A stretch of 57,129 bases of DNA from Verrucomicrobiales bacterium (GTDB taxonomy: Bacteria > Verrucomicrobiota > Verrucomicrobiia > Limisphaerales > UBA1100). Position numbers and translations under genes: made by a program. Shown piece after piece: positions 6,995 through 28,222 of the stretch; within the stretch, counting starts at the first letter, position 1, and each line of letters starts with the position of its first letter. Where the stretch lies: contig SYLI01000100.1 of NCBI GenBank assembly GCA_005809105.1, positions 1 to 57,129 on the forward strand. Direction: 5' to 3'. The notes under the pieces were generated by a model. That model was given only the letters and a program-made list of their open reading frames with translations. It searched no databases and was not told where the DNA came from.

Positions 6995-7075
6995 GAGGGG
7001 GCGATTTAATCCCCGAGCCATGGCGATGGCAATCCCAATCGCCCCATGAATCAACGGGGTGGCCCAAAGGGCCAG

Positions 7076-9610
7076 CTAGGCCTTGGGCCCAAGCACCACC
7101 GAGACGCAGTGCGCCGGGCGCAGGAAGCGCTGCGCCGCGCGCCGTGTCGCCTCCAGGGTGAGCGCCCCATAAAGGGCGTCCTCGCGAAGGTGGTAGTCAT
7201 GGCCCAGCCCGTAAAGCTCATCGGCCGCGGCCATCGTGGCAAGGTGCCCGAGATCCTGACGCGCAATCTGGCGCTGGCCCAGCAGCTTGTTGCGGGCCCG
7301 GCGCAGTTCGATCTCGGTCAACCCTTCGTCGCGCAAGGCCGCCACCTCGGCCAGCAGCTCCTGCTCCACGCGCAGGGCGTGCTCGGGCGCCGTGCCGGCA
7401 TAGAGTGCAAAGACACCGGGGATCCAGCCGGCCTGGTGGTGTGCACCCACGTAGTAGGCCATGCCGAGCTTCTCGCGCACGCGCATGAACAGGCGCGACC
7501 CCAAATCGCTCAAGGCTTCCGAGAGCAGATCCAGCGCCGGCCGATCCGCGTCAAAAACCGTGCAGCCTTGATAGGCCACGACCACGACGGCCTGCTCCTT
7601 GTCGCGCGCAAGCGTCACCCGCTTCATGCCTTCCTCCAGTTGCGGAGCCGTTGGGGGCGTTGCGTTTTCACCGCGCGCCCAGAGGGCCAAGGCACGCTCA
7701 ATCTCAACGCGCAGCGCGTCAACCTGGACGTCGCCGTAGATGGCGCACACCGCCTGATTGGGAACCGCCATGCGACGATGGAAAGATCGCGCGTCATCCG
7801 CGCCCAACGCCTGTACAGTCCCTTCCGTACCCAGCACGCTCAGGCCATAGCCTTGCGTTCCAAAGAGCGCCTCGCGAGCCTGTCGAAACGCGCTTTGCAG
7901 AAGGCGATCTTCCTGCGCCCTGATGGCCGCCGTCTGCACCTGCCTCTGACGCTCCACCGCCGCGCCGGGGAAGGACGCGTTGAGCGTGACATCGGCCAGC
8001 ACGTCCACGCCCAAAGCGAGGTCCTCGCTCATGACCTCCATGGACAACCCAAAGCTGTCGCCGCCGGCAAACGCGTCCACCGAGCCACCCACGGCTTCGA
8101 TTTGCTCCGCAAGCTGCTGCCCTGTGCGACGGGCGGTGCCCTTAAGCATGAGCTTGGACATGAACTGCGTGATGCCGCTCTGCGGGGGCGTTTCGGCCAG
8201 CACGCCTCCGCGCCAGGCCATGTGCAGATGAACGAAGGGCAGCCGGTGGTCGGGCTTGACGAGCAGGCGCAGTCCGTTGGGAAGGTCAAACTGCTGCACG
8301 GCTTGGGAGAGCGCACGCGCACGTGTCGCAGGTGCTGCGGTGGTCCGCCCCGGGGGCAAGAGCGCGTAAAGCGTGCGGTTGTCCTCGGTGAGGTACTCGC
8401 GCGCCACGCGCCTCAAATCATCGGGTGTGAGGCGGCGCACGGCTTCCAGATGGCGCTCGGCAAAGGTGAGATCATGGGCGTTGGCCCACGACGCCCCCAG
8501 CGTCTGCGCCTGTCCCTCCATGGTCTTGCGCGAGGCCAGCGTGCCGGCGACAAACTGCTTCACGACCTTCGAAAGCTCCTGGGCCGGCACGGCCGATTCG
8601 CGCACCACATCCAGTTCGGCAAGCAGCGCGCGGCGCGCGGCATCGAACTGGTCGGCGTCCACCACGGCGGTCATGCCAAAGAGACCCGAGTCGGCGTGGG
8701 AGTACGTCCAGGCGTCGGCGGAATGCACCACGCCCTGCTTCTCGCGCACGTGCTGGTAGAGGCGCGAGCTGCGGCCGCTGCCCAGGACGGCCGAGAGCAC
8801 ATCAAGCGCGGGCAAGTCGGGATGGCGCAAGCCAGGCACGTGCCATCCGTAATGCAAATGGCCCAGCTGGATCGCCGCCTCCTCGATCATCTCACGCGGC
8901 GCGGTCTGGCGCGGCTCGACGGGCAGAACCATAGGAGCCAGCGCCCGAGCCTTGGCACCGGCGAACGCGGCCTTCACCTGATCGAGCACGGCGTCGGCAT
9001 CCATGTCGCCCACGATGACGAGGAAGACATTGTTGGGCACGTAACGCTGGCGGTAGTAACGGACGATGTCCTCGCGCTGCAGCTCGTTGAAAATGTCCGG
9101 ATAACCAATGATGGTGTAGCGGTAGGGGCTGAGGGTGTACACCGTCTCGAACAGGCGGCGGCCGGAGCGGCGGCCCGGATCGTCCTGCCCCATGTCGATC
9201 TCGCGGCGGATCACATCCAGCTCCCGCGCCAGTTCGTCCGGCGGCAGTGTGGCGTGTTGGAGGATGTCGCAGAGAATGTCCACGGCCACGCGTGTGCCCG
9301 CTGCGGGCACGTCGATGTAATACACCGTACGGTCGAACGACGTGTAGGCGTTCATGTGCCCACCGGCCTCCTGCACCTCCTGATCGATGCGTCCGGCCAC
9401 ACGGGTTTCGGTGCCCTTAAAGAGCATGTGCTCAAGAATGTGCGAAAGCCCTGCGCCCATCCATGGCCCCTCGTGGATGCTGCCGGTGCGGCACCAAGCC
9501 TGCGCGGAAACCACCGGTGCGGAATGATCCTCACGCAGGATCACGGTCAACCCGTTGGGAAGAGTCACCAGCCGCGTGTCGCCGTGGCGGTTGACTTCGG
9601 CCGAAGGCAT
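7076..9610 (-). CDS. M16-family zinc metallopeptidase, two-unit form
   Basis: This 844-residue protein holds two tandem M16 (pitrilysin) halves. The N-terminal half has the inverted zinc motif HILEH (His57, Glu60, His61) with the third ligand Glu137 in VIRREIDMG, and the R-Y substrate-cradle segment follows in M16_C. The C-terminal half (from about residue 430) repeats the fold (HLHMAWRGGVLAETP) but lacks HxxEH, as in the usual active/inactive pairing. M16 enzymes degrade peptides. No signal peptide is evident from the chosen ATG, so a cytoplasmic location is likely. It is 57 bases downstream of the Minf_1886 gene on the same strand. The substrate is unknown. Confidence 0.93.
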   Translation of the reverse strand: MPSAEVNRHGDTRLVTLPNGLTVILREDHSAPVVSAQAWCRTGSIHEGPWMGAGLSHILEHMLFKGTETRVAGRIDQEVQEAGGHMNAYTSFDRTVYYIDVPAAGTRVAVDILCDILQHATLPPDELARELDVIRREIDMGQDDPGRRSGRRLFETVYTLSPYRYTIIGYPDIFNELQREDIVRYYRQRYVPNNVFLVIVGDMDADAVLDQVKAAFAGAKARALAPMVLPVEPRQTAPREMIEEAAIQLGHLHYGWHVPGLRHPDLPALDVLSAVLGSGRSSRLYQHVREKQGVVHSADAWTYSHADSGLFGMTAVVDADQFDAARRALLAELDVVRESAVPAQELSKVVKQFVAGTLASRKTMEGQAQTLGASWANAHDLTFAERHLEAVRRLTPDDLRRVAREYLTEDNRTLYALLPPGRTTAAPATRARALSQAVQQFDLPNGLRLLVKPDHRLPFVHLHMAWRGGVLAETPPQSGITQFMSKLMLKGTARRTGQQLAEQIEAVGGSVDAFAGGDSFGLSMEVMSEDLALGVDVLADVTLNASFPGAAVERQRQVQTAAIRAQEDRLLQSAFRQAREALFGTQGYGLSVLGTEGTVQALGADDARSFHRRMAVPNQAVCAIYGDVQVDALRVEIERALALWARGENATPPTAPQLEEGMKRVTLARDKEQAVVVVAYQGCTVFDADRPALDLLSEALSDLGSRLFMRVREKLGMAYYVGAHHQAGWIPGVFALYAGTAPEHALRVEQELLAEVAALRDEGLTEIELRRARNKLLGQRQIARQDLGHLATMAAADELYGLGHDYHLREDALYGALTLEATRRAAQRFLRPAHCVSVVLGPKA

Positions 9611-9667
9611 GTGAGTGACGTTAGCGCGGGGTGGCGCCAGCGCGCCAGCGCGGAAAATCCCTTTTCC

Positions 9668-10153
9668 CTAGTTCTTGTCCTCCGACTTGGGCTTGGAAGG
9701 CATCTGGATGCGAACCCGCGCGTCGGCCCGCGGAGGGCGCGGCGGCAAGGAAGCCTTGGTGAGAGCCGGCAGGAATGGCTTGCGGAACACGTCGTCAAAA
9801 TCGTAGCAGCCCTTGAAGTCCTCCCGGCTGTCGGTCTCGGTCTTGGCCAGCAGCTCGTGGTCCACCATGTTGAAGACCACCTCGCCAAAGTCCTCGCAAC
9901 GGCGCACGCCCCATTCATTGAGCACCATGAGGGCCATGGGGCCAAACTGATCCAGCGCGTGATCGCGCAGGCCCAGGAGCAGTTCCTGGCCGCTGATGTG
10001 TCGAAGGGCCCCGCCGCGCTCGCCCTTGGCGATGCGCTGCTGGGTAAAGTCCAGCCCTTCCCTCAAAAAAAGATACGCGCCGCGCGCATAGCGCGGGTCT
10101 GCGGCGATGACGGTGTCCAGCACCACGTCAAGCGTCGGTTTTTCCATGCTCAT
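9668..10153 (-). CDS. Minf_1886-family protein
   Basis: This is a conserved protein of unknown function, 161 residues, recognised by the segments ADPRYARGAYLFLREGLDFT, ISGQELLLGLRDHALDQFG and MVLNEWGVRRCEDFGEVVFN. I recall this family as characteristic of Verrucomicrobia and Planctomycetes. It is soluble, without signal peptide or membrane segment, and the C-terminus is basic and Pro-rich. The start MSMEKP is chosen because its ATGA overlaps the stop of the upstream 50-residue ORF; a second ATG two codons on is possible. Same strand as leuS upstream and the M16 peptidase downstream. Confidence 0.88.
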   Translation of the reverse strand: MSMEKPTLDVVLDTVIAADPRYARGAYLFLREGLDFTQQRIAKGERGGALRHISGQELLLGLRDHALDQFGPMALMVLNEWGVRRCEDFGEVVFNMVDHELLAKTETDSREDFKGCYDFDDVFRKPFLPALTKASLPPRPPRADARVRIQMPSKPKSEDKN

Positions 10154-10302
10154 TTCTTCTGTGCCTTCAACGGCGGCTCTTCCGCCTTCGGGGCGGCCGC
10201 CAGACTCCGTGCCTGACGCCATGTTTGAACCGCCCACCCCACCGCCAGCAACAGGAGCACACTCGCCAGCACCCCGCGCTCCCGCCCGGTGAGAAACTTC
10301 AT
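10150..10302 (-). CDS. Small membrane-anchored hypothetical protein (50 aa)
   Basis: This short reading frame begins MKFLTGRERG and has one strongly hydrophobic helix (VLASVLLLLAVGWAV), then a basic-to-acidic soluble tail ending PPLKAQKK. It is probably a single-pass membrane peptide. Its TGA overlaps the ATG of the Minf_1886 gene (ATGA), and it begins 21 bases after the leuS stop, so it fills the operon gap exactly. The start of a ComEA-like protein can look similar, but no helix-hairpin-helix follows. I do not recognise a function; the coding call rests on the precise fit and the membrane helix. Confidence 0.6.
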   Translation of the reverse strand: MKFLTGRERGVLASVLLLLAVGWAVQTWRQARSLAAAPKAEEPPLKAQKK

Positions 10303-13199: not shown

Positions 13200-14198
13200 A
13201 TGAAACCTACCCTAAAAAAACGCTCTGGCGTTGTGGCGTTCGTGCGCCTGACATTCCTGCTCTGCCTGCTGGCATTGACAGGGTTCACCGTGTCGCTGAT
13301 TCACGCCCAGGCCCGCGAGGCCGCCGCGGAGTCGGAAGCGTCGTACGACAATGTGGTGGTGACGCCCCACCGTGATGCATCGGCCGACCGCGCCATGCCC
13401 TCCGACCTGCGCGAGGTCGAGGCCATCGCCGCCGGCGAAGCCCACATCGTGGCGCTGCGCAAGGACGGAACCGTGGTGGCATGGGGCAACAACGGCGCCG
13501 GACAATGCGAGGTGCCCGCGGATCTCAAGGAGGTTCGCGCCATATCAGCAGGCGGAATGCACACCCTGGCTCTCAAGAGCGACGGCACCCTGGTCGCGTG
13601 GGGCGGCAACAACCACGGCCAGTGCGACGTGCCCGCAGGCTTGAACGGAGTGAAGGCGCTCGCTGCGGGATTCACCCATAACGTGGCGCTCAGAGACGAT
13701 GGCACGATTGTGGCGTGGGGCTGCAATCGATCCGGCCAATGCACCGTGCCCGAAGGGCTCAAGGACGTCACCGCCATCGCCACGGGTGGACTACAGACCA
13801 CCGTGCTCAAAGGCGACGGCACCCCGGATCAGTGGGGCCATTTCCCCATGTTGCCGATATCTACTGAGCGCCTCATTGCCATCGCAGCCTACGCCATGCA
13901 CACCGTCGCACTGCAAAAGGGTGGCCAGGTAGTAGTATGGGGCCGCAACGACTACGGCCAACGCGACGTGCCTGCCGGGCTGGAGGACGTCGTTGCCGTG
14001 GCGGCCGGCAGCTACCATTGCGCAGCACTCAAGGCTGACGGCACTGTGGTTGCCTGGGGCGGCAACAACCTGGGCCAATGCCGGGTGCCGCGCGGCTTAA
14101 ACACCGTGAGGGCCATCGCCGCGGCCGGGTATCAAACCGTCGCGCTTAAGGCCGATGGCACCGTGGTCGCCTGGGGCGGCAACAGCCCCCACCGCTAA
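13200..14198 (+). CDS. Secreted RCC1-repeat protein
   Basis: This 332-residue protein has an N-terminal hydrophobic export segment (about residues 13-36, ending SLIHAQA). About seven RCC1-type repeats of roughly 40 residues follow. Each has the pattern V..IAAG..H..AL..DGTVVAWG.N..GQC.VP, which should form a single beta-propeller. One central repeat is degenerate (TPDQWGHFPML). RCC1 propellers mediate protein or ligand binding; in bacteria the partners are generally unknown. It begins divergently from leuS and is followed by its own terminator, then by the giant cytochrome/DUF1549 gene. A role at the cell surface is inference from the export signal. Confidence 0.88.
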   Translation: MKPTLKKRSGVVAFVRLTFLLCLLALTGFTVSLIHAQAREAAAESEASYDNVVVTPHRDASADRAMPSDLREVEAIAAGEAHIVALRKDGTVVAWGNNGAGQCEVPADLKEVRAISAGGMHTLALKSDGTLVAWGGNNHGQCDVPAGLNGVKALAAGFTHNVALRDDGTIVAWGCNRSGQCTVPEGLKDVTAIATGGLQTTVLKGDGTPDQWGHFPMLPISTERLIAIAAYAMHTVALQKGGQVVVWGRNDYGQRDVPAGLEDVVAVAAGSYHCAALKADGTVVAWGGNNLGQCRVPRGLNTVRAIAAAGYQTVALKADGTVVAWGGNSPHR

Positions 14199-14390: not shown

Positions 14391-17300
14391 ATGACCATGT
14401 TCTTGCGCATCCTTTGGGGCACCCTGGCGTTGGCAGTCGCGGTGCCGGCCGCCTCAGCGGCGGAAACCCGGCCGGTGAGTTTCTACAAAGACATCCGCCC
14501 CATTTTCCAGGCGCAGTGCCAGGGATGCCACCAACCCGCCAAGGACAAGGGCGGCTATGTGATGACCGACTTCAAGCGGCTGCTGGCCGGCGGCGAGAGC
14601 AAAAAAATGGCGGTGGTGCCCAAGGACGCCGCGAAGAGCCACCTGCTTGAACTCATCCGCCCCGCCAAGGATGGCAAGGCGGAAATGCCCAAGGGGAAGG
14701 AGCCGCTCCACGCGGCAGAGGTGGAGCTCATCACGCGCTGGGTGGCCGAGGGTGCCACGGATGATTCGCCCGCAGCCACGGCGCAGATTTATGATGCGGC
14801 GCATCCGCCGGTGTACACGCTGCCGCCGGTGATCACGGCGTTGGACTGGTCGCCCGACGGCGCGCTGCTGGCGGTGGCCGGATTTAACGAGGTGCTGCTG
14901 CACAAGGCCGACGGCACCGGGCTTTTGGCACGGCTCGTGGGAATTTCCGAGCGCATCGAGTCGGTGCGCTTTTCTCCCGATGGCAAGCGGCTGGCTGTCA
15001 CCGGCGGGCGCCCCGCGCGCATGGGCGAGGTGCAGGTGTGGGATGTGGAGAAGCGGTCGTTGCTGCTCTCCCACGTGGTCAGTTTTGACACCGTCTTTGG
15101 CGCGTGCTGGTCGCCCAACGGGGCCGTCATCGCGTTTGGTTGCGGCGACAATTCCGTGCGCGCCATCGACGCGCTCTCCGGCAAGCAGGTGTTTTTTCAG
15201 GGCGCCCACAATGACTGGGTGCTGGGCACCTCCTTCGACGTGAAAGGCGAGCACGTGATTTCCGTGGGACGCGACATGACGGCCAAGCTCACCCTTTTGG
15301 CCACGGCGAGGTTTATTGACAACATCACCTCCATCACGCCGGGCGCACTCAAGGGCGGCATCGGCGCCATCGACTCGCACCCCAACCGCAACGCGATCCT
15401 CGTGGGCGGATCCGACGGCGCGCCGCAGGTGTTCCGCATCTTCCGCCAGTCCGCGCGGCAGATTGGTGACAACGCCAACCTCATCCGCCGCTACCCGGAC
15501 ATGCCCGGCCGCGTGTGTGACGTGCGCTACCGCCGTGACGGCAAGGCCTTCGCCGCCGCCAGCGCGCTCGACGGCAAGGGGCAGATAGTGATCTGGGCGG
15601 TGGACGGCGCCGCAGCCGTTCCTGCCGACGCCGCCGCTCTCTACGCCAAGCCGGCCGCCGGGCGCACCCCGCAGGAGGAGAACGTGCTGGACAAGTTTGA
15701 GAGCGACCAGATGAAGCAGGTGGCCAAGGTGGACGTGACCGAAAGTGGCATCTACGCGCTCGCCTTCAGCCCCAACGGCAAGACGCTGGCCGCGGCGGGT
15801 TCCGACGGGAAAATCCGCCTGCTCGACACCGCCAACGGAACGATGGTGAAGACGTTCCTGCCCGTGACGGTGGCCCAGAGCGCGCCCCCCGTCCTTGCGG
15901 TGCCGCCCCCCGCCCTCAATGCCGACGAGCTCAAGCTGGAAACCCTGCCCAAGGATTTTGTGGTGGCCTCGCTGGAGGTTTTCCCCAAGGCCATCGAGCT
16001 GCGCGGCCGCACCGACCACGCGCAAGTGCTCGTGACGCTTCGGTCCACCACGGGTGACACCTTGGACGCCACCCGCATGGTGAAGACGACCGTGACCGGA
16101 GGAGTGGCGGAGGTGTCGCTGCGCGGCTGGCTGACGGCACTCAAGGACGGCGAGGGCCGGCTTGAAATCGCCTTCGGCGGCAAGTCGGCGACGGTGCCCG
16201 TGCGCGTGAGCGGGTTTGGCCAGCCCTTCACGGTGGACTACGTGCGCGATGTGATGCCCACGCTTTCCAAGGCCGGCTGCAATGCCGGCACCTGCCACGG
16301 CGCCAAGGATGGCAAACGCGGCTTCAAGCTCTCGCTGCGCGGTTACGATCCCCTCTACGACGTGCGCGCGCTGACCGACGAATTGTCGGCGCGCCGCATC
16401 AACCCCGCCTCGCCCGAAGACAGCCTCATGCTGCTCAAGTCCACCGGCAGTGTGCCGCACGAAGGCGGCCAGGTGGTGCGCCCGGGTTCCGAGGCCTACC
16501 GCATCCTCTACCAGTGGATCGCCGCCGGCGCGAAGCTGGACCTGTCGACGCCGCGCATCAAGGGAATCGAAGTGTTCCCCTCCAACCCGGTGATGCAGCA
16601 GATTGGCGGGCGCCAGCAAATGCAGATCGTGGCCACCTACACCGACGGCCGCAGGCGCGATGTCACCGCCGACGCCTTTGTCGAGAGCAGTAATACGGAC
16701 ATTGCCACGACCGACCGCACGGGGCTCGTCACCGCGCTGCGCCGCGGCGAGGCGGCCATGCTGGCGCGCTACGAAGGCGCGTACGCGGCGACGACCGTCA
16801 CGGTGATGGGCGACCGCAGCGGGTTTGTGTGGCAGGCGCCAGACCAGTGGGGCCGCGTCGACGAACTGGTTTCGGCCAAGTGGCAGCGCATGAAAATCCT
16901 CCCCTCGGACCTGTGCTCGGATGTGGAGTTTCTGCGGCGCGTCTACCTCGACCTCACCGGCCTGCCGCCCTCTTCAGAGCAGGTGCGCGCCTTCATGGCG
17001 GACACCCGGGCAACGCGCATCAAGCGCGACGAAGCCATCGACAAACTCATTGGCGGCGACCTCTACGTTGACCATTGGTCCAACAAGTGGGCCGATCTGC
17101 TGCAGGTGAACGGCAAGTTTCTTGGGGCGGAGGGCGCCAAGACCTTCCGCGATTGGATTCGAAACGAGGTGAAGATGAACACGCCGTACAACGAGTTTGC
17201 CTACAAAATTCTCACCGCCGCCGGCTCCAACAAGGACAACCCGCCCGCGTCGTACTACAAGATTTTGCGCACGCCCGACGCCATCATGGAAAACTCCACG

Positions 17301-19472
17301 CACCTGTGGCTGGCCACGCGCTTTAACTGCAACAAATGCCATGACCACCCCTTCGAGCGCTGGACGCAGGACCAATATTATCAGACGGCCGCGTACTTCG
17401 CGCGCGTGAGCCTCAAGAAGGATCCCGCCGCCGGCGACCGCAACATTGGCGGCACCGCGGTGGAGGGCGCCAAGCCTCTTTACGAGATTGTCGAGGACGC
17501 GGGCCAGGGGGAGGTCAAGCACGACCGCACGGGTGCCCTCACCAATCCGGAATTCCCCTACCCTGCCACGCACGCCGCCAAGGCCGACGCGCCCCGGCGC
17601 TCGCAAATGGCCGCATGGATGACCTCGCCCGATAACCGGTATTTTGCGCGCAGCTACGTCAATCGCCTTTGGGGATACCTCTTGGGAGTGGGACTCATCG
17701 AGCCCTTGGACGACATCCGCGCCGGCAATCCGGCGAGCAACCCTGAACTGCTCGACTGGCTCTCGCAGGAGTTCGTCGCCAGCAAGTTCAACACCCGGCA
17801 CATGATTACGCTCATTTGCAAGTCGCGCGCCTACCAGCTCTCGGTTGCCACTCACAAGTGGAACGCCGATGACACCGTCAACTACTCCCACGCCACGCCC
17901 CGGCGCCTGCCGGCCGAGGTGCTCTTTGACGCCATCTACTTTGCCACCGGCACACAGACCCGGATTCCCGGCGTGCCCCCCGGCACCCGTGCCGCCTCGC
18001 TGCCCGACGCCGGCGGGGGAATGGTCGACGGCTTCCTGGGCACGCTGGGCAGGCCGGCCCGTGAAAGCGCCTGCGAATGCGAGCGCGTCAACGACCTCCA
18101 GCTGGCCCCCGTGCTGGCCATGATCACGGGCCCCACGGTGGACGCGGCCATCTCCGATGCCGACAATGCCATCGTCAAGCTCGTCAAAGCCGAGGCGGAC
18201 GATCGCAAGCTCGTCGACGAGCTTTACGTGCGCATCCTCAACCGTCCGGCGACTGAAAAGGAAGTGGCCGCTGGCTTGAAGCTCATGGGCGCGATCGAGG
18301 CCGACCACAAGGCGGTGCAGCAGGATCTGGCCAAGCGCGAGGAGGACGTCAAGCCCCTCGATGCAAAGCGCCAGACGCAGCGCGACGCCGACATCAAGGA
18401 AGCCCAGGGACACCTTGCTGCCTATCAGGCGCAGACGGCGCCCCGGGAAAAGGAACTGGACCGCCAGCAACAGGAACGCGTTGCGGCGGCGGACAAGGCC
18501 CTCAAGGCCTATGAAGCGACGCTGCCCGTCAAGATTCAGGAATGGGTGTCCACCGGAGGGAAGCAAACCCCTTGGACGGCGGTGTCGATCAAGGAGGCCA
18601 CGTCCACGGCCAAGTCCAAACTGGAAGTCGACGCCAACGGCAGCATTTTTGTCAGCGGCAACCGGGCCAAAGACACCTACACCATCATCGCTGAGACGAG
18701 CCTAAAGAAGCTGACGGGTGTGCGGCTGGAAGCACTGGCCGACGCGCGGCTTCCCAAGAGCGGCCCGGGCCGCGCCGATGACGGCAATTTTGTGCTTACG
18801 GAAGTGGTTCTCGAGTGGGCGCCCAAGTCGAAGCCTGCCGAGAAGAGGCGGATCAGTTTGGAGAATGCGCGGGCGGATTTCAGCCAGCAATCCTACGACG
18901 TGAAGACGGCCATCGATGGACAGGTGCCCGGCGCCAACAACGGCTGGGCCGTGGCGCCTGAGTTCGGGAAGGATCACGTCGCCTCTTTTGAGATCAAGGA
19001 CAAGGTGGAAGATGAAAGCGGCATCATCCTGACCGTGAAGATGCAGCAGCTACTTGACGGCGGCCAACACGCGCTGGGCAAGTTCCGGCTGGGCGTCACC
19101 GACGCCACCAAGCCAATCAGCTTCGGCCATCCGCCCAACATCTCTGCCATCTTCGCCATCGCGCCCGAAAAGCGCGATGAGAAACAACAGAAGGCACTGT
19201 CGGACTACCACCGCGCCCAGGACGGCGAACTGCAAAAGCTCTCCAAGGCGGTAGCCGACGCCAAGCAGCCCAGGCCCGTCGATCCGGAATTGAAGGAATT
19301 TCAAGACAAGGTGGCGCGGGCGCAGCTGCCTCTTGCGCCGGATCCCCTCCTCGTAGAAATGCGGCGCGCGGCAGAACTAAGCGCCAAGCAACTGGCCAAC
19401 CGGCGCCTGTACGGGGCGCAGGACATCGCCTGGGCGCTTCTCAACACGCCGGCATTCCTCTTCAATCACTAG
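14391..19472 (+). CDS. Exported cytochrome-type PSCyt1/WD40/DUF1549/DUF1553 fusion protein
   Basis: This is a 1,693-residue exported protein. The order is: signal peptide (cleavage near ASAAET, residue 24); PSCyt1-like heme domain with CQGCH at residues 43-47; WD40-type propeller (about 130-500, e.g. ITALDWSPDGALLAVAG, YALAFSPNGKTLAAAGSDGK); an Ig-like region; a second cytochrome-like motif CNAGTCHG at residue 630; Big_2-like domain (about 720-800); DUF1549 (SDVEFLRRVYLDLTGLPP, and CNKCHDHPFERW at residue 980); and DUF1553 (PDNRYFARSYVNRLWGYLLG, VNDLQLAPVL). A charged helical insertion near 1300-1380 and a discoidin-like stretch interrupt the C-terminal part, which ends NTPAFLFNH. Such proteins are typical of planctomycetes and verrucomicrobia, often beside sulfatases and polysaccharide genes; their function is not established. 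The DUF1501 gene follows after 51 bases. Confidence 0.93.
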   Translation: MTMFLRILWGTLALAVAVPAASAAETRPVSFYKDIRPIFQAQCQGCHQPAKDKGGYVMTDFKRLLAGGESKKMAVVPKDAAKSHLLELIRPAKDGKAEMPKGKEPLHAAEVELITRWVAEGATDDSPAATAQIYDAAHPPVYTLPPVITALDWSPDGALLAVAGFNEVLLHKADGTGLLARLVGISERIESVRFSPDGKRLAVTGGRPARMGEVQVWDVEKRSLLLSHVVSFDTVFGACWSPNGAVIAFGCGDNSVRAIDALSGKQVFFQGAHNDWVLGTSFDVKGEHVISVGRDMTAKLTLLATARFIDNITSITPGALKGGIGAIDSHPNRNAILVGGSDGAPQVFRIFRQSARQIGDNANLIRRYPDMPGRVCDVRYRRDGKAFAAASALDGKGQIVIWAVDGAAAVPADAAALYAKPAAGRTPQEENVLDKFESDQMKQVAKVDVTESGIYALAFSPNGKTLAAAGSDGKIRLLDTANGTMVKTFLPVTVAQSAPPVLAVPPPALNADELKLETLPKDFVVASLEVFPKAIELRGRTDHAQVLVTLRSTTGDTLDATRMVKTTVTGGVAEVSLRGWLTALKDGEGRLEIAFGGKSATVPVRVSGFGQPFTVDYVRDVMPTLSKAGCNAGTCHGAKDGKRGFKLSLRGYDPLYDVRALTDELSARRINPASPEDSLMLLKSTGSVPHEGGQVVRPGSEAYRILYQWIAAGAKLDLSTPRIKGIEVFPSNPVMQQIGGRQQMQIVATYTDGRRRDVTADAFVESSNTDIATTDRTGLVTALRRGEAAMLARYEGAYAATTVTVMGDRSGFVWQAPDQWGRVDELVSAKWQRMKILPSDLCSDVEFLRRVYLDLTGLPPSSEQVRAFMADTRATRIKRDEAIDKLIGGDLYVDHWSNKWADLLQVNGKFLGAEGAKTFRDWIRNEVKMNTPYNEFAYKILTAAGSNKDNPPASYYKILRTPDAIMENSTHLWLATRFNCNKCHDHPFERWTQDQYYQTAAYFARVSLKKDPAAGDRNIGGTAVEGAKPLYEIVEDAGQGEVKHDRTGALTNPEFPYPATHAAKADAPRRSQMAAWMTSPDNRYFARSYVNRLWGYLLGVGLIEPLDDIRAGNPASNPELLDWLSQEFVASKFNTRHMITLICKSRAYQLSVATHKWNADDTVNYSHATPRRLPAEVLFDAIYFATGTQTRIPGVPPGTRAASLPDAGGGMVDGFLGTLGRPARESACECERVNDLQLAPVLAMITGPTVDAAISDADNAIVKLVKAEADDRKLVDELYVRILNRPATEKEVAAGLKLMGAIEADHKAVQQDLAKREEDVKPLDAKRQTQRDADIKEAQGHLAAYQAQTAPREKELDRQQQERVAAADKALKAYEATLPVKIQEWVSTGGKQTPWTAVSIKEATSTAKSKLEVDANGSIFVSGNRAKDTYTIIAETSLKKLTGVRLEALADARLPKSGPGRADDGNFVLTEVVLEWAPKSKPAEKRRISLENARADFSQQSYDVKTAIDGQVPGANNGWAVAPEFGKDHVASFEIKDKVEDESGIILTVKMQQLLDGGQHALGKFRLGVTDATKPISFGHPPNISAIFAIAPEKRDEKQQKALSDYHRAQDGELQKLSKAVADAKQPRPVDPELKEFQDKVARAQLPLAPDPLLVEMRRAAELSAKQLANRRLYGAQDIAWALLNTPAFLFNH

Positions 19473-19523: not shown

Positions 19524-20990
19524 ATGATTCGAATCCCTGGCGAACTGGGCAGAGACTTGTGCGATCCGGGCTTGGGCATGACCCGGCGCGACATCTTGCG
19601 CGTGGGTGGGTCGGGCCTCTTGGGCCTTTCCCTGGGCGGCCTCATGGAGTTGCAGGCCAAGACCAAGGAGACCACGTCGGGCGGGCCCGGCTGGGGCAAG
19701 GTCAAGAGTGTCATCCTTCTCTATCTCCAAGGTGGGCCCTCGCATCTGGACTTGTGGGATCCCAAGCCCGACGCAGCCGACAACGTGCGCTCGGTGTTTA
19801 AGCCCATCCCCACCAAGATTCCCGGCGTCAACTTCACCGAGCTGCTGCCCAAGCTCGCGCAGGTGAACGACAAGTTCACGATGATTCGTTCGGTCAGCTA
19901 CACGCCCAACGGGTTGTTTAATCACACCGCGGCCATCTATCAGATGATGACCGGCTACACGACCGACAAGGTGAGCCCGTCGGGCCAGCTCGAACCGCCC
20001 AGTCCGAAGGACTTCCCCAATTTCGGATCGAACATCGTCCGACTCAAGCCGCAGGAAGAGCCGATGCTGCCCTTCGTCATGCTGCCGCGCCCGCTGCAGG
20101 AGAGCAACGTGGTGGGCAAAGGCGGCACCGCCGGGTTTCTGGGCAAGGCGTTTGATCCTTACTACCTCTACCCCACCGGCGACGACATGGATCTCTCCAA
20201 GATGGACCGCATCAAGGTGGATGACCTGCAGATGCGCCCGGAGGTGTTCAGCCACCGCCTGCGCCGGCGCGCGCAGTTGCGCACGGCCATCAACGATGCC
20301 ATGCCGGACATCGACAAGGCCGTCGCGAAGTACAACCTAAACGAGTACTACGACCGCGCCCTCTCGCTCATCGTCAGCGGCCGCGCCCGCAACGCGTTCG
20401 ACTTGACTCAGGAAACGGACAAGACCCGCGACCTCTACGGCCGGAACACCTTTGGTCAGAGCTGTCTTCTGGCACGGCGGCTGGTCGAGGCTGGAACGCG
20501 CGTGGTGGAGGTGGTGTGGCCCAAGGTGGCCAATTCCGACAATCATTCATGGGACGTGCACGTGGGCCTTGAGGCTCGCATGAAGAACCAGTCGGCACCG
20601 ATGCTCGACCGCGGCCTCGCCGGCCTTTTCACCGACTTGGATCAACGCGGCATGATGGAGAACACGCTCGTGCTGGCGATTGGCGAGTTTGGCCGCAGCC
20701 CGCAGAAAGGTCTCTCTACCAGCGGCAACAGCAACGACGCCAACGGGCGCGACCACTGGCCCTATTGTTACACCTGCGTCATCGGCGGCGCGGGCATCAA
20801 GCGCGGGTATGTCCACGGCAAGTCGGACAAGACCGCCAGCGCGCCTGACGAGAACCCCGTGCATCCCATCGAGCTTTTGGCCAGCATCTATCATGGATTT
20901 GGCATCTCGCCCGAGACCATCGTTTACAACCACCTGAACCAGCCGCGCGAGCTGGTGAAGGCGCAGCCGGTGGACAGGCTCTTCGCCTAG
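19524..20990 (+). CDS. DUF1501 protein with Tat-type signal
   Basis: This 488-residue protein belongs to the DUF1501 (sulfatase-fold-like) family that is almost always encoded next to DUF1549/DUF1553 proteins. The N-terminus has a twin-arginine motif ([11 protein letters not shown], Arg21-Arg22) followed by a hydrophobic stretch, so export by the Tat system is likely; tatA and tatC are in this window. Conserved blocks are [53 protein letters not shown] and [10 protein letters not shown]. The acidic and His residues in these blocks suggest a metal site, but no reaction is proven. It is probably co-transcribed with the upstream cytochrome gene and ends at a clear terminator. Confidence 0.94.
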
Positions 20991-26788: not shown

Positions 26789-28222
26789 CTAATCACCCGC
26801 AGGCTGACTCGCCTTTCGTTTTTCATCGCGCACATGCCAGCGCCAGGCGATGAACACGCTGATCTCGTAGAGCAGCTGCATGGGAATGGCGACCACGCAC
26901 ATGGTAAAGGGATCGGGCGAAGGCGTGACAATGGCGGCGAGAATGAGGTTGGCGATGAGCGCGTACATGCGCCAAGCAGACAGACGCTGGTAATTGAGGA
27001 TGCCAATCTTGACCAGTGAAAGCAGCACCAGCGGCAGCTCAAACGCCAGCCCCATTCCGATCATGAACTTGCATGTGAAACTGATGTACTCGTCAGCCCG
27101 CCACTCGTCGGCGCCAAAGCCCATCCAGTTTGAAAATCCCACGCTGGCCAGAATGGTGACGGTCATCACCACGAAATAGCAGAAGACGACCCCCAGCAGG
27201 AAAAGACCGGAGCCATAGCCGGCGATTTGATAGAGGAACTTCTTCTCGCGCACGCGCAGCGCCGGCAGGATGAACTGCGCGATGTAGTAGATGACGAAGG
27301 GCATCGAGAGCACGAGTCCTCCATAGAGCGCGATTTTGAGCGCGACGATGAAGGCGTTGAGGGGACCGTAGTTTTTGAGCAGCACCAGATTGCGCGAGGA
27401 TCGCTCGGGCGTTTCCACGGGCTTGAGCGCCAGGTAGCGGACGGTGCTGCCATTGCTCTCGGTGAGCGTGATGGGGGTGAACTCAAGCGCGTCCACCTTG
27501 ACCTTGTTCGTGCCGCCAAATGAATTCCAGACGTCCTGCGCCTTGACGGAGAGCACCTCGTTGGTTCCGAACCTCACGGGCACGGGCCGATTGGGCATCT
27601 TGCGCCAATCCAGCGGCGATCCGACGTTGAACACTCTGTGAATGATGTCGGAGGCCGCGCCGCCAGTCTCATGCAAATCCTGCGCGAGCTTCAGCGGCCA
27701 GGTGAGAATTTGAATGATGTAATTACTCGCCACCAAGGCCACCACCATGCCGATCAGCACCGCCGACACCGTCTTAATGAGCACCCAGCGAAGGTCTTCC
27801 AAATGCTCGAGAAACGGCTTGATGGGGCCGCCGAAAGGCTCGCCACTGTCATCCGTGGGAGGGGGATCCTCTGCGCTCTCGGATGGCCCACCATGGGCAG
27901 GGTCGGCCGAGGATTCTGACGAGTGATATTCGCCCCCGCTCGTTCCGTGGTGATATTCGTCCTGGTAGTGGTCGCCGCCGTGCGAGTGGGCATGATAATC
28001 ATGGTACTCGTCATGGTACGGATCGGCGGCACCCGGCGTAGGATCGGTCGTGCCAGAAGCGGCTTCAACCTGACCGGGTGTGGAATCTCCGAGCGGCAGC
28101 TCAGTCTGTTGTGAGTGCCCAGCAGTAGGATCCGATGCAGGACTGCTTGGAGTCTCTGATCCAGCGTCCACGCGTACCTCATCCCCGTGGGGGGAGGGCT
28201 TGCCTTCAGGCCCAGCAGACAT
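26789..28222 (-). CDS. tatC: Sec-independent translocase TatC, with His-rich N-terminal extension
   Basis: TatC is the core receptor for twin-arginine signal peptides in the inner membrane. The conserved core begins at FLEHLEDLRWVLIKTV (about residue 137) and has six predicted membrane helices, ending at FIAWRWHVRDEK. Two departures from typical 250-residue TatC are visible. First, there is a roughly 133-residue hydrophilic N-terminus with nine His between residues 70 and 100 among Tyr/Asp/Glu. Second, the first extracytoplasmic loop spans about 110 residues (about 182-290) instead of about 30. The protein totals 477 residues. It lies 23 bases after tatA on the same strand. The extension lacks an export signal, so it should face the cytoplasm. 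Confidence 0.94.
   Translation of the reverse strand: MSAGPEGKPSPHGDEVRVDAGSETPSSPASDPTAGHSQQTELPLGDSTPGQVEAASGTTDPTPGAADPYHDEYHDYHAHSHGGDHYQDEYHHGTSGGEYHSSESSADPAHGGPSESAEDPPPTDDSGEPFGGPIKPFLEHLEDLRWVLIKTVSAVLIGMVVALVASNYIIQILTWPLKLAQDLHETGGAASDIIHRVFNVGSPLDWRKMPNRPVPVRFGTNEVLSVKAQDVWNSFGGTNKVKVDALEFTPITLTESNGSTVRYLALKPVETPERSSRNLVLLKNYGPLNAFIVALKIALYGGLVLSMPFVIYYIAQFILPALRVREKKFLYQIAGYGSGLFLLGVVFCYFVVMTVTILASVGFSNWMGFGADEWRADEYISFTCKFMIGMGLAFELPLVLLSLVKIGILNYQRLSAWRMYALIANLILAAIVTPSPDPFTMCVVAIPMQLLYEISVFIAWRWHVRDEKRKASQPAGD

Follow-up and report, generated by a model that had tools for sequence, protein, structure and literature searches.

The question that this locus raises is what is done, and with which partner, by a single bacterial gene in which cytochrome-like, propeller, Ig-like, DUF1549 and DUF1553 domains are joined in one chain. 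The window, by which we mean the whole stretch of 57,129 nucleotides that was analysed, carries this gene on its forward strand at 14391..19472 as an intact frame of 1,693 residues plus stop, with nearly full-length relatives; an alternative TTG start is possible 24 bases 5' of the start. The coordinates and length given by an earlier reading of the letters (the sequence-only reading) were thus correct, and its domain list was borne out by the Pfam search, of which the best 25 of 44 families were listed.

From the N- to the C-terminus the order is PSCyt1, WD40 propeller, CX4CH domain, Big_2, PSCyt2, PSD1, insertion and terminal helix, all on the + strand. A Sec-type signal peptide (residues 1-24, 14391..14462) was recognized by inspection and is followed by cytochrome domain A with C43xxC46H47 (14463..14780), where PSCyt1 (PF07635) covers residues 43-101, including the CXXCH, with 44.6 bits against a cut-off of 22. 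The WD40-type propeller (residues 148-490, 14832..15860) was assigned by Pfam, and cytochrome domain B, with C630x4C635H636 and His690 (16224..16550), by profile comparison and alignment. Then come the Big_2 Ig-like domain (residues 723-807, 16557..16811), located by Pfam (725-788) and by the model, in which this region matches the Ig-like structure 8gyr with Z 15.2; PSCyt2 or DUF1549 (PF07583, residues 823-1006, 16857..17408; 139.2 bits, curated cut-off 29.8), which contains C980xxC983H984-D-H986-P; and, C-terminal of it, PSD1 or DUF1553 (PF07587, residues 1069-1297, 17595..18281; 135.9 bits, curated cut-off 28.5) with C1228-E-C1230. The best 60 of 191 rows of a PDB sequence search with the fused protein matched the propeller or the Ig stretch only, and neither this protein nor its DUF1501 partner had any NCBIfam match above cut-off. 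The promoter and terminator scan at the locus was uninformative.

Two other frames of the window may be mentioned here. An RCC1-repeat protein is encoded upstream of the fused gene (13200-14198, + strand), and it has no match in the 80 related loci described below. At 7046-10216 (+ strand) there is an open frame of 1,056 residues with no Pfam match, which lies opposite another long frame and looks like an antisense frame.

A scan of GTDB contigs yielded at least 574 relatives among at least 584 pattern matches, the best 80 of which were kept as related loci. All 80 match nearly end to end, with 50-78% identity in the best segment (the match of L055 ends at residue 1639, at the contig end). Their labels are those of Verrucomicrobiota and Planctomycetota; L015, L039 and L069 bear the names of other phyla and are probably mislabelled bins, and the closest named relative in the tree is a Pedosphaera sp. 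(L059, 78%). These relatives rule out a fusion unique to this genome; the idea that the assembly had artificially joined two genes was rejected in view of the tree and of another 79 members with a single frame. The near full-length matches and the motifs invariant in 80/80 members exclude chance. The impression of a singular fusion given by the sequence-only reading was not borne out; the family is old and spans two phyla. The full-length fused protein was found in 7 genomes of a 288-genome sample of the window's phylum, plus G189, where it lies at the end of a contig and in two frames, and an ortholog scoring 660 bits or more was found in 58 of the 244 genomes of a second-phylum sample, which was centred on G321 and reached via L034 (Planctomycetales). 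The phylum names of both samples were taken from their centres, and in each genome the searches scored the best 2 candidates for the fused protein and the best 5-6 for DUF1501. In contig C13 of G013 (111061-115555) there is a copy of the fused gene with several stops, yet its DUF1501 matches end to end free of stops.

The same parts also occur apart, as the sequence-only reading had stated for modules of this kind. Besides the fused gene, 46 PSCyt2 frames of the window's genome were examined, and 8 of them have the CX4CH domain, Big_2, PSCyt2 and PSD1 without propeller; four of these adjoin a separate PSCyt1-WD40 gene, one has such a gene about 4.4 kb off, and for the remaining three none was found within the stretch examined. 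Among 15 stretches from other genomes, chosen for frames that seemed short or divided, PSCyt1-WD40 and CX4CH-Big_2-PSCyt2-PSD1 were in separate frames in 14. In nine of the 14, DUF1501, PSCyt1-WD40 and CX4CH-Big_2-PSCyt2-PSD1 follow one another directly as three genes (with frames broken in two for DUF1501 in G521 and for the CX4CH part in G437), and DUF1501 was absent from the stretch examined in the other five (G420, G537, G523, G465 and G189). A midpoint-rooted tree of 66 rows was built with 43 of the 80 fused rows, the 15 stretches and the 8 own paralogs, whose branches are long. With a support of 100/100, these 43 fused rows and G189 form one clade. Outside it fall the 12 split rows that have the insertion, and further out, in an open fork, are G425, which is fused and lacks the insertion, and G465, which lacks it as well and has its two parts split but in the same reading frame. 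This tree suggests a single fusion event basal to the fused clade and, when rooted on the paralogs, that the insertion would have come first and the fusion afterwards; G425 is apparently a second, independent fusion, and G189 looks like a later split or frameshift. Since the same parts were fused repeatedly, the two parts probably touch each other.

The three Cys motifs that had been noticed at residues 43, 630 and 980 are at the right positions; the first and the third are CXXCH, the standard heme c motif, and that at 630 is CX4CH (C-NAGT-CH). In the alignment of 80 members (the window and 79 loci, L013 being left out as its gene is in two frames), C43, C46, H47, C630, C635, H636, C980, C983, H984, H986, C1228 and C1230 are invariant, and M99 and H690 are invariant as well. 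In domain A, Met99 is the likely second heme ligand beside His47. Domain B (residues 600-720) has no Pfam match even at E 10, and the confidence of the model is uneven across it (block means 41-88). Its profile matches the PSCyt1 profile with an hhalign probability of 97.7% (E 1.4e-12) when broad profiles are used and 91.8% with narrow ones. His690 falls two residues past the column of Met99, and an H-x-GG in 9/9 domain B rows has its His two residues after the Met-Pro column of 29 domain A rows. Judging by these alignments, domain A is likely a His/Met and domain B a bis-His heme c domain, that is, two hemes in the chain.

The third motif, in PSCyt2, allows two readings. The site CXXCHDHP, perhaps with the CxC of PSD1, could hold a metal (Zn, Fe or Cu) instead of heme, which would leave only two hemes and is compatible with the main model given below; we consider this quite possible, though a little short of evenly balanced. 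Four Cys and two His are kept in 80/80 members, the pattern CXXCHxH is present in 44 of the 46 own-genome PSCyt2 frames, and the CxCE motif that follows PSCyt2 (window 18072-18080) occurs in 7/8 of the CX4CH-type paralogs and in 0/38 of the other PSCyt2 frames, a restriction by which the Cys pairs of PSCyt2 and PSD1 seem to be linked. On the other hand, CXXCH is what a heme c site would show, and it is presumably on account of this motif that the family was named cytochrome. PMC2754498 also gives the cytochrome name and suggests a redox function. We note besides that the start of PSCyt2 (16857-17408) resembles the end of the PSD1 region (17595-18281) over 51 columns (hhalign 86.5%), perhaps an internal repeat. 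When the PSCyt2-PSD1 core was compared with solved structures, none of the 50 rows listed per search was a clear counterpart, which barely probes this core.

After PSD1 there is an insertion of charged long helices and a beta-sandwich (residues about 1300-1670, 18288..19400), taken from the model, followed by a conserved terminal helix (19401..19469) supported by alignments and model. In the model of residues 602-1693 (mean pLDDT 85.2, pTM 0.67) a helix runs over 1289-1375 and the sandwich over 1393-1573 (18567..19109). A fold search showed a moderate resemblance of this sandwich to CBM32 (discoidin-like) modules (Z 9.0, 136 aligned, rmsd 3.2, 11% identity); among the Foldseek rows for the model the first CBM (6sgf) appears only at E 0.017, and residues 1321-1693 have no CBM32 or discoidin match in Pfam. 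The charged helical and discoidin-like parts that had been proposed are present in the model, but they do not split the Pfam domain DUF1553, both being located after the Pfam PSD1 and before the terminal helix. This position differs from that in five own-genome paralogs, where a related stretch lies between PSCyt2 and PSD1 (L124 has it at 16 bits only). The median identity of the members to the window is 39% in the insertion, 68% in PSCyt2 and 65% in domain B, and the higher variability of the insertion might be that of a part meeting different substrates. The modelled CBM32-like module would be the main hint to the substrate.

Immediately downstream, at 19524..20990 (+), lies the gene of the DUF1501 partner, a protein of 488 residues with a Tat-type signal and an alkaline-phosphatase-superfamily fold, as given by Pfam, model and inspection (PF07394, 345.5 bits, cut-off 27). 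Its twin-arginine motif was recognized by eye, in agreement with the Tat export formerly proposed for it; taking both signals into account, export of the fused protein by Sec and of DUF1501 by Tat is well supported. A DUF1501 gene starts at most 1.5 kb downstream of the fused gene in 59/80 loci (for L013 the distance was measured from its first fragment), and in 7/80 the contig ends within 1.8 kb of the fused gene. The genomes of the 14/80 loci with no adjacent DUF1501 each have exactly one match elsewhere (E<=1e-100, 73-78% identical), a single ortholog among 34-119 first-look DUF1501 candidates. No other neighbour cluster recurs in more than 8 of the 80 loci, the clusters being unannotated, and on this ground a more extended operon that would include RCC1, SDR or further neighbours was rejected; for the same reason the genome context gives no substrate.

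The pairing extends to the genome samples. Among the 288 genomes, the DUF1501 ortholog (more than 800 bits) is in exactly the 7 with the intact fusion, and G189, with its broken copy of the fused clade, is an exception with no partner at E<=1e-80. Sixteen of the 20 genomes of the window's family have both genes (several in pieces at contig ends), 3 have neither, and G003, a genome 56% complete, has DUF1501 only. In the second-phylum sample, where G321 and G327 were found through the fusion, 57 of the 244 genomes have both, 186 neither and one (G549) the fusion only, with 1,568 bases left downstream on its contig. The Fisher values for this co-inheritance ignore relatedness and leave G189 out. 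Usually there is one copy of each per genome. DUF1501 is therefore a nearly obligate, co-inherited partner of the fused protein, and the two-gene unit of the sequence-only reading was borne out by adjacency, by sole recurrence as neighbour and by co-inheritance. A physical complex of the two proteins is a well-supported inference on these grounds.

It was also observed that the window's genome (G000, 3.0 Mb) has 47 PSCyt2 and 71 DUF1501 matches; 45/47 of the former have a DUF1501 match within 4.5 kb and, conversely, 53/71 of the latter have a PSCyt2 match at such a distance. A TatC gene of the window (26789-28222, - strand) has an N-terminal extension of 138 residues with a His-, Tyr- and Asp-rich stretch, and a frame with a similar stretch is found in L009 (13967-15469).

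The model of the DUF1501 partner has a mean pLDDT of only 65.8, with 247/488 residues below 70. Among the 50 rows listed, it matched NPP, PafA and sulfatases with Z 14.4-15.8, the top match being ENPP6 (Z 15.8, 243 aligned, rmsd 3.9). A PDB sequence search with this protein gave two weak sulfatase rows (E 0.56), and in the window's genome three further DUF1501 genes are hit by the sulfatase HMM PF00884 at 6e-4 to 9e-4, below cut-off. By eye, no nucleophile of the alkaline phosphatase superfamily was recognized, and the partner could be a pseudo-enzyme. In that case the pair might have a structural or assembly role in the envelope and no catalytic one, with the hemes as electron sinks or redox sensors and DUF1501 as a scaffold; the propeller, Ig, coil and CBM-like parts are binding modules, and the usual single copy and strict pairing fit a structural unit. 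The residues invariant over 60 DUF1501 rows include H134, D344, H346, E388, R391, D410 and H411, however, and this His/Asp/Glu/Arg set, like the invariant ligand sets for two hemes, looks like chemistry, so we regard a non-catalytic complex as unlikely.

The reading that we prefer, which we hold to be about as probable as all others together, is an exported two-protein complex acting on envelope glycans. The fused scaffold would be exported by Sec and would then receive covalent heme in domain A (His47/Met99) and a second one in domain B at the unusual CX4CH site (His636/His690). It would present the propeller, the Ig spacer and the CBM32-like, glycan-binding-type module between long helices, while the PSCyt2-PSD1 core would hold the Tat-exported DUF1501, with its alkaline-phosphatase/sulfatase fold and enzyme-like invariant residues. 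The pair would bind a glycan (sulfated or phosphorylated) at the cell envelope, DUF1501 would handle its ester group, and the two hemes would pass electrons between the Cys/His site of PSCyt2 and the respiratory chain. The substrate, the catalysis and the direction in which electrons would flow are inferred, as is the choice between heme and another metal at the PSCyt2 site, and the polymer handling and redox activity suggested by the sequence-only reading are likewise putative. Extracellular electron transfer to minerals or humics, in place of glycan chemistry, would make use of the two heme domains, and distinct porin-multiheme systems of Verrucomicrobia are discussed in PMC5615132; for such a function a count of two or three hemes is low, and only DUF1501 recurs as a neighbour in more than 8/80 loci among unannotated clusters. 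We consider it very improbable.

A possible wider relation of the preferred glycan-acting complex came from DUF1800. The broad PSD1 profile matched DUF1800 with 92.4% over 59 columns (hhalign), against 0.1-0.6% in six unrelated comparisons; the narrow family profile gave 2.6% only, and residues 1054-1336 of the fused protein have no DUF1800 (PF08811) match at E up to 10. PSCyt2 itself showed no convincing similarity to DUF1800 (hhalign 6.1%). The DUF1800 search of 30 related genomes also picked up PSCyt2-PSD1 proteins, and four split relatives, chosen because this search had found them and two of them 99% identical, scored E 5.8e-5 to 1.6e-3 (18-23 bits, below the cut-off of 26.1). The sole DUF1800 of the window's genome adjoins a DUF1501 (C73). 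The profile match and the shared partner suggest that PSD1 and DUF1800 may form one superfamily with one partner, DUF1501. A bolder proposal, which we put forward with little confidence, is that PSCyt2-PSD1 and DUF1800 belong as two branches to a single superfamily with a fixed partner, the AP-fold DUF1501, and that the exported complex so formed is widespread and of a new kind. The complex would have become redox-coupled in PVC bacteria, and the fused family would be its most integrated form, an electron-transfer-linked system that cleaves glycans or their esters and contains a Cys/His metal centre and a CX4CH heme with two His ligands. The PSD1-DUF1800 link, if true, ties the fused family to the DUF1800-DUF1501 operons of other bacteria.

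The PSCyt, PSD and DUF1501 domains and this type of module were already known. The literature found, as far as its text was available, gives no tested function for these modules, which can account for many genes in PVC genomes. The nearly obligate pair, usually with a single copy of each, is the simplest handle on that function, and its near-constant co-inheritance makes a joint function testable. Among the titles listed in the literature searches none names the fused family. The texts consulted, which do not include the original study of the DUF1501 module (Kamneva et al. 2012) or most subscription papers, mention neither this orthologous family nor a CX4CH domain with a second, invariant His, the strict pairing or a link of PSD1 to DUF1800.

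Proteins with PSCyt1, PSCyt2 and PSD1 (PF07635, PF07583, PF07587) were described for PVC bacteria in R. baltica and in PMC5615132, which already lists Big_2, WD40 and F5_F8-type modules with them, proposes that they may act in carbohydrate metabolism and mentions sulfatases in their vicinity. They share the domains and, in general, conserved neighbour genes with our family, which differs in being one orthologous family of fixed order, with a CX4CH second cytochrome domain, a C-terminal and not central insertion and a DUF1501 ortholog of its own. The DUF1501 genomic module of PVC bacteria, as cited from Kamneva et al. in PMC4452313 and PMC4960237, likewise joins DUF1501 to exported partners without known function, and PMC5587647 reports DUF1501 beside WD40 genes in Planctomycetes. 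In bacteria with chitin synthase genes, DUF1800 is the operon partner of DUF1501, according to PMC5122149; DUF1501 is thus common to both systems, and part of PSD1 resembles DUF1800. Unlike the fused family, DUF1800 proteins have no heme motif by eye in 15 aligned rows and no propeller in six scanned (L105 and L106 carry other extra domains). With the alkaline phosphatase/sulfatase/NPP superfamily DUF1501 shares its predicted fold, and the C/S-x-P-x-R signature of sulfatases was not recognized in it by eye.
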